Shown here: positions 21,684 through 52,004 of the stretch, one piece after another
Layout of the letters: each line of letters opens with the position of its first letter
Position numbering within the stretch: the first letter of the stretch is position 1
Notes under the pieces: model-generated
Database searches by the model: none
The model's input: only the letters and a program-made list of their open reading frames with translations
Told to the model about the DNA's origin: nothing
NCBI GenBank assembly: GCA_023248635.1
Contig: JAHFED010000008.1
Coordinates: 1-64,000 of the forward strand
From: Myxococcales bacterium
GTDB lineage: Bacteria > Myxococcota > UBA727 > VGSZ01
Length of the DNA: 64,000 bases
Direction of reading: 5' to 3'
Program-made: the position numbers and the translations under genes

Positions 21684-21781
21684 AATTTGTCTGCAGCTTC
21701 GTCGCCTGCCGGTGAATTCACCGACAGCGCTTCGCGTGTCGGTGAATTGTCTACAGGTTGATCGCCTAGCGGCGATGAATT
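21684..21781 (-). repeat. degenerate array of palindromic ~31-33-bp units
   Basis: Three units each start AATT: 21684 (AATTTGTCTGCAG..), 21715 (AATTCACCGACAGCG.., a palindrome with TGTCGGTGAA) and 21745 (AATTGTCTACAGG.. ending GCCTAGCGGCGATG). Reverse-complemented, the third unit (CATCGCCGCTAGGCGATCAA, then CCTGTAGACAATT) matches the unit of the tandem array at 22952-23083, but here it is inverted. Confidence 0.7.
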
Positions 21782-21881: not shown

Positions 21882-21918
21882 TGAAGTTTGGATGTTCAAG
21901 ACGCTGGCGCGTCTTGAA
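21882..21918 (-). repeat. 33-bp-type palindromic element
   Basis: TGAAGTTTGGATGTTCAAGA through GTCTTGAA is the exact reverse complement of the element inserted at 38885-38922, including the CATCCAAACTTCA spacer. Arms TTCAAGACG / CGTCTTGAA. Confidence 0.85.
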
Positions 21919-22801: not shown

Positions 22802-23278
22802 GCGGCCTCCACGACGACGAAGCGTGCAGCGCTTGTGCCCGACATCGCCCCAACACGCGTTGCGATCGTTCGACTCACTGCCGGGGCCCGCGCACGTCGA
22901 CGTCGCCGCCTTCGCCGTGCGCCGGGGCCTCACGACCCGTCGGCGTACAGTTCATCGCCGCCAGGCGATGAACCTGCGGAGAACTCATCGCCGCCAGGCG
23001 ATGAACCTGCGGAGAACTCATCGCCGCCAGGCGATGAACCTGCGGAGAACTCATCGCCGCCAGGCGACGAACCTGCAGACAATTCGCCGCCTGTGGCGCG
23101 GGTGCCGGGGCGCGGTCGCGTCCTCGGCACCCAAGCCACGGGTGCGCAGCCCGGTAAACAGATCGGCTGCGTCGGCGACGACGACGACCTGCGGGGCCTG
23201 CGGGCTGTGTGCTGGGGCACGGCTGCTGCACAGCCCTCGCTCCACATCGTCAGGGCCGTTTCAACGCGAGGAGTTCGT
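22802..23278. other. long leader before the ACP operon, with tandem repeats
   Basis: A 477-bp stretch between the divergent universal stress gene and the ACP gene. It holds the 4 x 33-bp array (22952-23083). A frame open through the array would add an 11-residue repeat (SSPPGDEPAEN) to the ACP, but the strong ribosome site at 23266-23273 argues that translation starts after it. The promoter of the operon should lie here; I cannot place -35/-10 boxes. Confidence 0.6.
22952..23083 (+). repeat. tandem array, 4 x 33 bp, palindromic unit
   Basis: The unit starts TCATCGCCGCCAGGCGATGA and continues ACCTGCGGAGAAC; copies begin at 22952, 22985, 23018 and 23051. The first three are identical and the last diverges (GACGA, CAGACAAT). 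Each unit contains a 9-bp-arm palindrome TTCATCGCC/GGCGATGAA. No spacers separate units, so it is not a CRISPR array. Confidence 0.95.
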
Positions 23279-35622: not shown

Positions 35623-37341
35623 TCAGCGGCGGAACTTGCTCGGCGGCCCGCGCCGGGGTGGGTGAGCGCCGCCCAGGGGCCTCTCCTCACGGGGCTGGGG
35701 TCCTGGGGGGCCGGGCGCGAACTCCCGGGGGGACGAACGCCCTGCCATGCGGGGTGGGGGAGCCGGAGGACCGGGCCGCCGATCGACGAAGGGCTTCGGC
35801 GCGGTCCGCGGATGTTCTTGGCGGGTGGCCCGCGCGGCCAAAGCGATGCTGTCCGAGACGTCTTCGGGCGCTGGCAAACGGGCCTGCTCCTGTCGGGCCA
35901 CCAAGCGGGCGAGCTCGGCGGCGGAGAAGCGCTCCAAGAGCTGCTGCACCAAGGCGTCGTCGACGTCGCCTTCGGTCTCGAGGCTTTCGCCGGCCACGCC
36001 GTTGCCGGGGGCACACAGGCGCTCGATCAAGCGTTGGCGATCGCGGGCGTGGATGGCGTCGGCCGATGGCAGCGGCGTCCAGTGGGGCTTCAAGCCCAGG
36101 GAGTAGAGCTGGCGTTCGGCGGCGAAGCGCGACTGACCCGTCGCCAAGATCACCGCGCTGCCCTTTTTGCCGGCGCGGCCGGTGCGTCCGTTGCGGTGGG
36201 TCAGCGCGGTGGCGTTTTCGGCGACGTCGCCGTGGATGATGAGGGAGACCTCGGGCAGATCCAACCCGCGGGCGGCGACGTCGGTGCAGACGAGCACGCG
36301 CGCTCGTCCATCGCGCACGGACTGCAACGCACGGTTGCGCTCGGCCTGCGAGAGCTCGCCCGAGAGAGCGACGACGGAGAAGCCCCGCTCGAGCAGGCTC
36401 GCGTGCAAGCGCGTGACGGTCTCTCTCATGGCGACGAACACCAACGCGGTTTGGGCCTCGTGGAAGCGCAAGACGTTGACGACGGCGTGCTCGCGCTCGC
36501 GCGGCGCCACTGGATGCATGGACACCGCGATGTCCTGGTGCGCCGTCGTCGTCGGCGTCGCCTGGATGCGGGCCGCATCCTTTTGGTACTTGCGCGCCAA
36601 AGAGACGATGGGCGGGGGCAGCGTCGCCGAGAACAAGAGCGTGCGGCGCGCCGGCACACTGCAGGCATCGAGCAGGGTCTCGAGGTCTTCTTGAAAGCCC
36701 ATGTCGAGCATTTCGTCGGCCTCATCGAGCACGACGACGTCGACGGCGCTGAGATCGAGGGCCTTGCGCTCGAGGTGATCGACCAGGCGCCCCGGGGTGC
36801 CGACGACGATGTGCACACCGGCGGCCAGGGTTCGCCGTTCGCGCTGGGAATCGGTCCCGCCCACACATGAGGCCACCCGCGCCCGCAGACCCGCGTAGAG
36901 CCAAGCGATTTCGCGCTCGACTTGGAGCGCCAGCTCACGCGTCGGAGCAATGACCAGCAAACGTGGAGCCCCCCGCGCCGTCGTCGGCTTGAGGGCTTTG
37001 TCGTCGGGAGAGAGGGTCTTGGCCGCAGCCAAGCCGAAGGCGATGGTCTTGCCCGATCCCGTGCGCGACGACACCAGCAGGTCCCGCGAGGCCACGCCAG
37101 CGGCAAGCACCGAGGCCTGCACTGTCGTCGGCGTCACGAAGCCCTTTTTCTCGATGGCGGCCAGCAGCGGCGGCGACAACCCCAGCGAGGCGAAGGAAGG
37201 CCCAGCAGGCACGTCGTCGTCGTCGTCGTCGTCGGGAGCCATGTTGCGGGTGTCGATGTCGGTGACGTCGGGGAGCTCGGTGTCGGTGTCGGGGTTCACG
37301 TCGGGATCCATTTCAAGACGCGCCAGCGTCTGGAACATCAA
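35623..37341 (-). CDS. DEAD-box RNA helicase
   Basis: A 572-aa ATP-dependent RNA helicase: Q-motif region GFVTPTTVQASVLAAG, motif I SSRTGSGKTIAF, Ia PTRELALQ, GTPGRL, motif II VLDEADEML, III LFSATL, and HRNGRTGRAGKKG (VI). The C-terminus is a Pro/Arg-rich disordered tail ending RRGPPSKFRR, typical of RNA-binding. The N-terminal MMFQTLARLE is encoded by a 33-bp palindromic repeat; the ATG at 37311 (MDPDVNPD) is the alternative start. An Asp-rich run follows (about 38-44). It lies 5 bp after the dehydrogenase gene. Confidence 0.93.
   Translation of the reverse strand: MMFQTLARLEMDPDVNPDTDTELPDVTDIDTRNMAPDDDDDDDVPAGPSFASLGLSPPLLAAIEKKGFVTPTTVQASVLAAGVASRDLLVSSRTGSGKTIAFGLAAAKTLSPDDKALKPTTARGAPRLLVIAPTRELALQVEREIAWLYAGLRARVASCVGGTDSQRERRTLAAGVHIVVGTPGRLVDHLERKALDLSAVDVVVLDEADEMLDMGFQEDLETLLDACSVPARRTLLFSATLPPPIVSLARKYQKDAARIQATPTTTAHQDIAVSMHPVAPREREHAVVNVLRFHEAQTALVFVAMRETVTRLHASLLERGFSVVALSGELSQAERNRALQSVRDGRARVLVCTDVAARGLDLPEVSLIIHGDVAENATALTHRNGRTGRAGKKGSAVILATGQSRFAAERQLYSLGLKPHWTPLPSADAIHARDRQRLIERLCAPGNGVAGESLETEGDVDDALVQQLLERFSAAELARLVARQEQARLPAPEDVSDSIALAARATRQEHPRTAPKPFVDRRPGPPAPPPRMAGRSSPREFAPGPPGPQPREERPLGGAHPPRRGPPSKFRR
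37312..37341 (+). repeat. 33-bp-type palindrome at the helicase start
   Basis: TTCAAGACGCGCCAGCGTCT then GGAACATCA matches the elements at 38885 and 21882 with one change in the right arm. It contains the ATG codons that can start the helicase gene. Confidence 0.8.
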
Positions 37342-37346
37342 AAGCG

Positions 37347-38575: not shown

Positions 38576-38884
38576 ATGGAGTCGCAGAGGTAGCGCGGCG
38601 GTTTCTCCGTCGCAAGAGCGACATCGGTCCCGCCGCCTCCTCGCGTTGACACAGGCGCGGGGCGTGCCGACGGGCCGCTCGAACGCGAGTCCATTCGCTA
38701 CGCCGTCACCGGCAGCGTCGCCGGCAGCGCCTATGGCGAACCGCGCATGACCGACATCGACATCGTCGTCGACATCGGGCCCGGCGACGTCGATCGGGTC
38801 GCGCGTAGTTTCCCCATCGCCGATTTCTACTTCCCGCCCGAAGAGGTCGTGGCCGTCGAGGTGCGACGGACGCAGCGGGGGCAT

Positions 38885-38922
38885 TTCAAGACGCGCCAGC
38901 GTCTTGAACATCCAAACTTCAA
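38885..38922 (+). repeat. 33-bp palindromic insertion 1, TTCAA-flanked
   Basis: TTCAA at 38885-38889 and again at 38918-38922, exactly 33 bp apart, enclose GACGCGCCAGCGTCTTGAAC and ATCCAAAC. Removing one 33-bp unit restores the sequence encoding RGHF-NVIHHDTG. Confidence 0.9.
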
Positions 38923-38944
38923 CGTCATTCACCACGACACCGGC

Positions 38945-38983
38945 TTCAAGCCGCGCCAGCGGCTTGAACATCAACACTTCAAG
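38945..38983 (+). repeat. 33-bp palindromic insertion 2, TTCAAG-flanked
   Basis: TTCAAG at 38945-38950 and 38978-38983, 33 bp apart, enclose CCGCGCCAGCGGCTTGAACA and TCAACAC. Removing 33 bp restores GFK-ADFYP. The arms (TTCAAGCCG/CGGCTTGAA) differ from insertion 1 by a compensated base pair, so the palindrome is preserved. Confidence 0.9.
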
Positions 38984-39294
38984 GCTGACTTCTATCCCAA
39001 GGGGAGCGACGCCCTGCAGGAGTGGGCCCTGGCTGGGGCCCATCGCGTCGACGTCGACGGAGCACCCATCGCGCTGGCGCACCCGAGTACGTGATCGTCA
39101 AGAGGTTGGAGTTCTTCCGCGAAGGCGCGGCGCGCAGAAGCACGTCGACGACGTCGACGCCATGGTCCGCCACCAACTCGGTGCTCTCGACCTCGAGTTG
39201 ATCGAGCGCCACCCCCGACGTCTTGGCCTCGATGGGCTGTGGCAGAAGCTTCTGACCTCGTAGCCCTTGGGCGTTCGGCGCTAGAACACGCGTC

Positions 39295-42818: not shown

Positions 42819-43733
42819 TCAGCGACGTCGCCGGAAGACCAGCACCATCCCGAGCACGGCAATGGACGCCTGGGAGGAACCGGCGCCGCAAAATCCTCCT
42901 GGTTCGCCTTCGCCCTCGCCTTCTCCTTCGGCGGGTTCGCCCTCTCCCTCGGCGGGTTCGCCTTCTCCTTCAGCGGGTTCGCCTTCTCCCTCGGCGGGTT
43001 CGCCTTCTCCCTCGGCGGATTCGCCTTCCCCCTCGCCCTCGGCCGATTCGCCTTCACCCTCGCCGGCCTCGCCCTCGCCTTCACCCTCGCCCTCGCCCTC
43101 GCCTTCGCCGGCCGGGACTGTGAAGGTGAAGGCCGCGAGGCTGCGCTGGAAGTCACCGCCGCTGCTGTTGTTGCCGTCGACGTCGTTGATGCCGACGTTG
43201 AGGGTGTGGCTGCCGCTCGTCAGGCCTGCCAGGGTGAAGGTCCACACGATGGGGTCGGCGGCGCCGAAGGTCTTGGTTCTGGTGACGTCACGCACCGCTG
43301 TGCCAGCGGGCTTGCCACCGCAGCTCGAGCCGCAGACCTCGTAGCCGTCGCCGGCGACGAAGGTGCCGGTGTTGGCCGAGACGAAGGCGGCGAAGGTTCC
43401 CTTGCGGCTGGCTGCGCAGGTCTTCGACCCCGAGGCGCCGGTGCAGATGCCTGTCGTGCACTCTGCGCCAGTCACACAAGATCCGGCGACGGGCGTGGCC
43501 CCCCGCGGTGCGTGCGAGACCAAGGTGAGCTCGAACACCACGCTGCCGCCGACGACGAGCGGGTCGGACGTCACCTGCACCAGCGTGCCCGTCGGGTTGC
43601 CGGCGTTGGAGTCGCTGCTGTGGCAGCTGCGGCAAGAGGAGGCCAGGCTGTAGACCGACGTTGAGGTGCGTGCCTGGACGGCAGTGGCACTGAGGGCGGC
43701 GACGACGACGACGAAGGCACTTTGGAATCGCAT
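42819..43733 (-). CDS. exported CXXCH protein with GE-repeat spacer and MYXO-CTERM-like tail
   Basis: A 304-aa protein with a signal peptide (FVVVVAALSATAVQA, cleavage after 21). CRSCH at 34-38 is a heme-c-type motif. A beta domain follows with several Cys, a spacer of repeated GEGEGE / EGEGEPAEGE units (about 215-275), then a Cys, a hydrophobic span (SSQASIAVLGMVLVF) and RRRR. That end matches the tripartite surface-sorting signal known from Myxococcus (MYXO-CTERM), where Cys is processed and lipid-anchored. The start is the ATG at 43733, 12 codons inside the longer frame. Confidence 0.85.
   Translation of the reverse strand: MRFQSAFVVVVAALSATAVQARTSTSVYSLASSCRSCHSSDSNAGNPTGTLVQVTSDPLVVGGSVVFELTLVSHAPRGATPVAGSCVTGAECTTGICTGASGSKTCAASRKGTFAAFVSANTGTFVAGDGYEVCGSSCGGKPAGTAVRDVTRTKTFGAADPIVWTFTLAGLTSGSHTLNVGINDVDGNNSSGGDFQRSLAAFTFTVPAGEGEGEGEGEGEGEAGEGEGESAEGEGEGESAEGEGEPAEGEGEPAEGEGEPAEGEGEPAEGEGEGEGEPGGFCGAGSSQASIAVLGMVLVFRRRR
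42901..43108. repeat. GE-repeat minisatellite
   Basis: About 210 bp of imperfect 15-21-bp repeats (CCTTCTCC, CTCGGCGGGTTCG words on the plus strand) encoding the GEGE/AEGEGEP spacer of the CXXCH protein. Confidence 0.85.
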
Positions 43734-51085: not shown

Positions 51086-51994
51086 ATGACCAGTCTCGCT
51101 CGATCCATCCTCCGCGACGTCGCCAGAAGCTCCTGGATGGCCCCGCTCGACCCCTTGCTGCGTCGCGCAGCCTTCGCGGCCACGGCTCTGCGCAAGGCCA
51201 CCGATCCCACGCTGCCCCACGCTGCCAAGCTTGCCCTCGACCGCTGCTACGTCGATGGCCGACCTCTGCTCTTGGGCCACCGCGGCGCCATGGCGCGCGC
51301 TCCGGAGAACACCCTCGGCTCCTTTCAAGCGGCCCTCGACGACGGCGCCCGCGGCGTCGAGCTCGACGTCACCCTCTCTGGCGACAGCGTGCCTGTGGTG
51401 CTGCACGACGACACTCTCGACCGCACCACCAACATCTTTGGCAAGCCCACCGACTACGACGCCGCTGAATTGGCCGGGCTCGATGCGGGCTCGTGGTTTC
51501 CCGGTTGGGGGCCAGAGATCGTGCCCTCCCTCGGCCAGGTGTTGCAGAGCATGCCCGCCGGCGCCGTCGTCAACGTCGAGCTCAAGGGACCGACACCGGC
51601 CTACGTCGGCCTCGAACGCCGCGCCGTCGACGTCATCCGCGCTCATCCGGCGGTGCACGTCATCGTCAGCTCCTTTCACCCCGCTCAACTGCTCGAAGTG
51701 AGGCGCATCGCTTCCGAGCTGCCCATCGGGCTTCTCGTCGCCGAACAGTCCTTTTTGCCCGCGCGCACGGCCTGGACAGCACCCCTGCTGGTGCCCGACG
51801 CCATCCATCCCCCTGCCCGCATGGTGGACCGCTCTTTCGTCGACGGCTGCCGCAGCGCGGGATTGCGCGTGCACGTGTGGGCGGTGCCCTCGACCGACGA
51901 AGCCGCGCGCTTGCTCGACCTGGGGGTCGACGGGCTCATCGTCGACGACGTCGCCGCCATGGCTCCGCTTTTTTCGGACGCGCCAGCGTCATGA
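51086..51994 (+). CDS. glycerophosphodiester phosphodiesterase-family protein
   Basis: A 302-aa GDPD-fold hydrolase: LLGHRGAMARAPENTLGSFQ, GVELDVTLSGDSVPVVLHDDTLDRTT, VVNVELKGPTP, VSSFHPAQLLEVRR and VWAVPSTDEAARLLDLGVDGLIVDD. The HRG..PEN, ELD and HDD metal and catalytic motifs are present; the N-terminal 50 residues are an unannotated helical lead without a clear signal peptide. It starts 25 bp after purF and may be co-transcribed. Its last codons (SDAPAS) fall in a degenerate 33-bp palindrome. Confidence 0.93.
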   Translation: MTSLARSILRDVARSSWMAPLDPLLRRAAFAATALRKATDPTLPHAAKLALDRCYVDGRPLLLGHRGAMARAPENTLGSFQAALDDGARGVELDVTLSGDSVPVVLHDDTLDRTTNIFGKPTDYDAAELAGLDAGSWFPGWGPEIVPSLGQVLQSMPAGAVVNVELKGPTPAYVGLERRAVDVIRAHPAVHVIVSSFHPAQLLEVRRIASELPIGLLVAEQSFLPARTAWTAPLLVPDAIHPPARMVDRSFVDGCRSAGLRVHVWAVPSTDEAARLLDLGVDGLIVDDVAAMAPLFSDAPAS

Positions 51995-52004
51995 ACGTCA
52001 ACAC
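51973..52004 (+). repeat. degenerate 33-bp-type palindrome at the gdpD end
   Basis: TTCGGACGCGCCAGCGTCAT then GAACGTCAACAC matches the element consensus TTCAAGACGCGCCAGCGTCTTGAACATCAACAC at all but a few positions. The TGA stop of the gene lies within it. Confidence 0.6.

Follow-up and report, generated by a model that had tools for sequence, protein, structure and literature searches.

Two 33-bp palindromic inserts in one gene

The 64-kb stretch of DNA analysed here (the window) carries, within a gene for a nucleotidyltransferase-like protein, two palindromic inserts of 33 bp each (Table 1), the palindromes being TTCAAGACGCGCCAGCGTCTTGAAC at 38885-38909 and TTCAAGCCGCGCCAGCGGCTTGAAC at 38945-38969. 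In these copies the unit, R1 from here on, consists of a perfect 10-bp stem (TTCAAGACGC / GCGTCTTGAA) around a GCCA loop, then a C and an 8-nt tail, ATCCAAAC in copy 1 and ATCAACAC in copy 2, with the second TTCAA lying 33 bp past the first. Both inserts are where the original prediction had placed them, and both are absent from ten homologues of the gene. The prediction had named a natural presence of these 11 residues in relatives as evidence against insertion, and none of the ten carries them. By chance, 0.00 copies of the palindrome are expected in the window (100 shuffles).

The product of the host gene has no match to a Pfam family, and its frame is broken by at least two frameshifts at 39080-39150, just downstream of the inserts, so that in this assembly the gene is probably a pseudogene. 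The inserts had been described as in frame, and both do measure 33 bp, but in a probable pseudogene the frame says little about selection. The window holds further copies of R1 and of a related hairpin, R4 (Table 1). Another repetitive segment, at 42904-43110, is matched by dozens of similar stretches in all three close relatives and is probably the low-complexity linker of a surface protein, rich in PSPS/GEGE.

Table 1. Positions of R1, R4 and R7 hairpins and associated features (window coordinates, except for R7)
Feature	Position	Strand	Remarks
R1 copy 1, 33-bp insert	38885..38917	+	hairpin 38885-38908, then C and tail ATCCAAAC; missing from ten homologues
TTCAA target 3' of copy 1, host codons TTC AA.	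38918..38922	+	TTC AAY/AAG in 9/10 homologues
R1 copy 2, stem variant CCG/CGG, 33-bp insert	38945..38977	+	in the nucleotidyltransferase-like gene of copy 1
TTCAA target 3' of copy 2	38978..38982	+	three closest homologues: TTC AAG or TTC AAA, no insert
Host gene of copies 1 and 2, nucleotidyltransferase-like	38687..39263	+	frameshifted downstream of inserts
R1 copy, intact hairpin (21894-21918)	21886..21918	-	then TTCAG on minus strand
R1 copy	37312..37344	+	one stem mismatch; tail and right flank mutated
Decayed R1 copy	51972..51996	+	3' end of phosphodiesterase-like gene; core GACGCGCCAGCGTC intact
R4 (TTCATCGCC-GCCA-GGCGATGAA), four tandem units	22951..23071	+	period 33
R4-associated hairpin pair	21717..21779	.	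TTCACCGACA...TGTCGGTGAA and R4 copy with GCTA loop
R7 examples	L117:7770; L135:15450-15600		

Copy number, anatomy and arrays of R1

The two inserts are one corner of a larger family. When the scan of the genome and its relatives that the original prediction had proposed was carried out, 468 copies (247 + 221) with up to 3 mismatches were found in this 6.5-Mb genome and none with a reversed control pattern, while two congeners (G001 and G002) and a relative from the same family (G003) had 0. The search motif put forward at the time, with three-nucleotide spacers, matches nothing relevant, the actual spacing being TTCAA-n4-CGCCAG-n4-TTGAA. Among 57 relatives the sole match was a single one, with 3 mismatches, in a distant genome, and 84,980 species represented by one genome each (genome_contigs) yielded 0 exact matches outside the window's own genome, which this set may not include. 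R1 has probably amplified recently and in this one lineage, and this forms part of the explanation favoured below. A search of viral contigs for the R1 stem with any loop returned five hairpins, all unrelated. The broader scan of genome_contigs also gave scattered matches, several of them in contigs of Bradyrhizobium macuxiense (L047, L051, L059, L060, L062, L063, L082), where the palindrome has the outer stem TTCAAGNCGC and a different loop and is possibly a bradyrhizobial REP.

R1 units are 33 or 34 bp long, far smaller than ordinary MITEs, as had been claimed. Their tail, or spacer, measures either 8 nt, as in ATCCAAAC, or 9 nt, as in CATCAGAAC. Folded as single-stranded DNA, one unit reaches -11 kcal/mol, against -2.1 for shuffles (z -7.1). 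The statistics on flanks and arrays come from about 2.1 Mb, a third of the genome, in which 179 copies group into 84 arrays; 49 of these are single units, and the others run head to tail, with up to 8 units spaced by 33 bp (56 times) or 34 bp (37 times). Of 60 pairs of adjacent spacers in the same array, 39 are identical, versus 8.5% expected from spacer frequencies. CRISPR arrays were considered and rejected, as the R1 spacers, of 8-9 nt, are usually identical within an array and not unique. The tail lies downstream of the GCCA strand 67 times and downstream of the TGGC strand 3 times, and TTCAA precedes the core in 91 of 111 cases and follows it immediately in 0 of 111, so the direction of R1 relative to its target is fixed.

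The arrays are mostly intergenic, in keeping with the extragenic preference of REP sequences: 18 of 82 fall inside a coding mask, a heuristic one built from long open reading frames with codon-position GC contrast, versus 1744 of 2411 (72%) control TTCAA sites (p = 2e-20).

Empty sites and the insertion rule

The original prediction had called for a comparison of empty and filled sites, and this was made between orthologues across species and between copies of another repeat. One example is the host gene itself, where the uninterrupted sequence at site 1 reads TTC followed by AAC, AAT or AAG in nine of the ten homologues, and the three closest homologues have TTC AAG or TTC AAA at site 2. Another example is R6, a repeat of this genome, at least ten copies of which are empty, with GAGCGAAC joined without a gap to TTCAACTGGACTTGG (to GAGAGAAC in one copy; the empty junction is also given as GAGCGAAC joined to TTCAACTGG). 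An R6 copy in L025 has one 33-bp R1 unit exactly at this junction, and the copies in L130 and L131 have one and at least four units, respectively. A third example is the OsmC gene, which in the congener G001 is empty and begins with ATG AGC GCC GAG ACT followed directly by TTC ACC, and which in this genome reads ATG AGC GAG CAC CCT, then TTCAAGGCGCGCCAGCGTCTTGAACATGAACAC, then TTC ACC. The OsmC gene, likely a live one, shows in-frame insertion better than the window gene does. A gene for a membrane protein (L213) also has a copy of R1 in frame; its homologues are too distant to show an empty site. Synteny with G001, G002 and G003 recovered no empty sites between genes, the alignments breaking outside genes.

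The evidence for mobility is entirely comparative. The comparisons show insertion, so far as it can be read from empty and filled sites, to be precise, at a pre-existing TTCA and in one orientation, with host bases neither lost nor duplicated, and the view of R1 as a recent, site-specific micro-insertion at TTCA(A) is borne out by the homologues, R6 and OsmC alike. The idea of a target-site duplication at TTCAA is not. The empty OsmC site reads TTCACC and the filled one TTCAAG...AAC followed by TTCACC, and because the empty site is TTCAC, the right-hand TTCAA is the host target and the left-hand TTCAA the element's own end, leaving R1 without a target-site duplication. The flanks agree: in copies with intact cores, positions 1-4 are alike on the left and right, whereas the fifth base is other than A in 10 of 36 right flanks versus 1 of 36 left flanks (p = 0.006, uncorrected for the five positions compared). 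As judged from these sites, R1 inserts 5' of TTCAN, which corresponds to 3' of NTGAA on the opposite strand.

These observations bear on two alternatives. If R1 were a MITE belonging to a DDE transposon (the IS630 copies of this genome being one candidate), with a 5-bp TTCAA target-site duplication, then TTCAA on both sides of the inserts in the window gene would be expected, and a degenerate IS630 copy (L119:6740-7830, minus strand) does lie between two inverted R1 units, both with the rare GCTA loop. However, the OsmC site, TTCAC when empty and TTCAA at the left of the insert, speaks for no duplication and largely refutes this model; the 28-bp core would be without terminal inverted repeats, and R1 inserts in one orientation only. 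We therefore regard a MITE as very improbable. IS630 was also considered as the mover and set aside: R1 flanks one of its three loci, and the copies in C75 and C127 are without flanking R1. Among transposon families, this comparison of ends covered IS630. According to the other alternative, R1 is immobile, slippage having multiplied a small number of seed units, and is retained as a terminator of transcription, a stabiliser of mRNA or a site of protein binding. The strong hairpin, the intergenic enrichment and the uniform tails within arrays are all compatible with this, but the precise gains within genes and within another repeat, as compared with empty sites, are not, and hundreds of unlinked sites with the same unit are beyond the reach of slippage. 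We consider this model very improbable.

The GCCA loop, known systems and the search for a mover

A count of hairpins with a perfect stem of 8 bp or more and a loop of four unpaired bases gives 239 with GCCA as the loop; the runner-up, GCAA, has 21. The stems around GCCA fall into families, R1 (130), R4 (TTCATCGCC, 45), R7 (TTTGAGCCGT and TTTGCGCCGT, 31 and 25) and some that are rare. R7, with 348 copies in the genome and 0 in the congeners, is TTTG[A/C]GCCGT-GCCA-ACGGC[T/G]CAAA, a hairpin of 24 nt, like that of R1, with a period of 33-35 and tails such as CATCGGCAC (compare CATCGGAAC in R1). Units of R1 and R7 adjoin in mixed tandem, 34 and 35 bp apart, and R4 frequently forms pairs with TTCACCGACA...TGTCGGTGAA hairpins and CCTGTAGACAA linkers. 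Compared in this way, the families differ in the sequence of the stem but have in common their GCCA loop, the length of their units and their tendency to form arrays.

The original prediction had placed the structure of the inserts under selection on the strength of one compensated pair. This is a weak argument, as most stem changes within the R1 family are single and uncompensated, even if pair 7 has 7 double changes versus 1.0 expected. The claim finds better support in the invariant GCCA loop and in R7, whose pair 5 covaries strongly (A-T 40, C-G 33 and G-C 3, of 89). Since the loop is kept across different stems, and since the R7 stem covaries, what is recognised is probably the folded single strand.

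Among known systems, REP/REPIN sequences are like R1 in being hairpins of 20-50 nt present in hundreds of mostly intergenic copies and forming species-specific families; occasional copies within genes, even two in a single gene, have been described for them as well (PMC3733652), and their recognition as single strands is sensitive to the loop, TnpA_REP reading the loop and the tag and reversal of the loop impairing cleavage (PMC8266576). R1 might be a true REP whose mover, a RAYT (TnpA_REP), this assembly lacks. It is REP-like in its size and hairpin, in its high number of copies, in its bias towards extragenic positions and in its single-strand logic (PMC3116915, PMC3733652, PMC8266576), its fixed loop resembles the loop-sensitive reading of hairpins by TnpA_REP (PMC8266576), R1 arrays do sit at contig ends, and RAYT genes, being flanked by REPs, could drop out where arrays break the contigs. 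The differences make us consider this identity rather unlikely. No GTAG stands beside R1, R7 or R4, and the one CGTC in R1 forms part of the paired stem, leaving R1 without either tag; its units form head-to-tail arrays of 33/34 bp, whereas REPINs are inverted doublets; and R1 has TTCA as a defined target, at which the empty sites are precise. The REP-type transposase suggested as the mover was looked for, and the assembly, 96.7% complete, gave 0 matches to the Y1 transposase family (PF01797) and 0 first-look candidates, with controls detected. Genes flanked on both sides by R1, R4 or R7 hairpins, as RAYT genes are by REPs, number 13, none of them transposase-like by eye.

Elements of the IS200/IS605 type have a hairpin end and insert on the 3' side of a short target, T-rich or of the TGA type, in one orientation and without duplication, and a preference for the lagging strand is expected of them. 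R1 likewise inserts 3' of a fixed short target, in one orientation and without duplication, but it measures 33 bp in total, is without paired, differing left and right ends, and resides in a genome in which neither tnpA nor, at the same 96.7% completeness, TnpB (PF07282) was found. R1 orientation was unrelated to local GC skew (30 of 66) in a weak test on 20-kb pieces, which revealed no lagging-strand bias. IS91-type HUH elements insert at GAAC, and as movers of R1 they were rejected, the in-gene targets being without GAAC. Very small mobile repeated elements of cyanobacteria (SDR), reportedly described by Elhai et al. in 2008 in a study cited in PMC3733652, are about 20-30 bp; they are like R1 in their small size, in mobility recognised by empty-site comparison and in having no known enzyme, and would differ from it in sequence and phylum and in the fixed-loop hairpin and TTCA target that R1 has.

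Palindromes inserted in frame within protein genes are also known as Rickettsia palindromic elements (PMC10969869, PMC3733652). The RPE-1 types have a length of about 150 bp and frequently lie within genes, whereas the 33-bp R1 forms arrays and is found mostly between genes, and its 34-bp units would break reading frames. The GC clusters of yeast mitochondria (GC42) are mobile palindromes of about 40 bp with bursts of copy number in single lineages (PMC4478555) and, like R1, no known enzyme, but they belong to an organelle, have an AG target that is duplicated, and are not tandem in the way that R1 is. For these clusters RNA-mediated copying has been proposed (PMC4478555), and R1 too could have spread via RNA or retron-like single-stranded DNA, copied by a reverse transcriptase, the genome having one reverse transcriptase match, read as a retron. 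We find this route improbable: there is a single such locus, nothing ties the retron to insertion at TTCA, and the R1-like hairpin near it is a variant, in one msr/msd-like copy only. The locus in question (L292, G000:C11 at about 75.5 kb) has a retron-like reverse transcriptase with apparently three msr/msd copies around it, and the hairpin in one of these has a GCAA loop.

Overall, R1 is most probably a very small, non-autonomous mobile DNA element, recently amplified, that works like the single-strand elements of the REP and IS200 types but is without the features that define them. Its 5' end is its own TTCAA, the outer stem of the 10-bp hairpin with the GCCA loop. With the end of the element equal to its target, every insertion leaves a fresh TTCAA, and units accumulate in head-to-tail arrays. 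On the other strand, R1 would enter 3' of NTGAA and itself end in TTGAA, like IS200/IS605 and REP-type hairpins. A hairpin-reading nuclease, of the Y1/HUH type or a functional equivalent, may cut after TGAA at both ends, and the single-stranded unit would be pasted and then copied when the site is replicated. Arrays may grow by slippage or unequal exchange too, as neighbouring tails are usually identical.

What is unusual here is the combination of precise TTCA targeting and empty sites, a self-regenerated target, head-to-tail arrays, several stems with one loop, no tag, and no Y1 enzyme found. It is tentatively conceivable, if doubtful, that R1 and its kin represent an undescribed class of self-targeting hairpins of about 33-35 bp, with several families set by the GCCA loop and not by the stem, a target recreated so that arrays form, and a hairpin-reading enzyme other than Y1. 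Outside RAYT systems, it has long been an open question whether the very small palindromes of bacteria are mobile as single-stranded hairpins and which enzyme moves them. The rules of R1 are unusually readable, with an exact unit, an exact target, empty sites and a loop that is kept while the stem changes, and the GCCA hairpin, set against its TGGC counterpart, offers a direct bait for the enzyme in a genome apparently without the usual suspect.

Other repeats were met with in this genome. One, of about 165 bp and MITE-like (TAATCCC...GGGATTA, with TA at both ends; L107, L120, L132, L137), lies once inside an R1 unit. Another, of about 215 bp, begins with ATCCCGCGTCCGCTTGATGTTCGACCG, and its copies (L109, L111, L114, L118, L130, L134, L137) are 90-97% identical.
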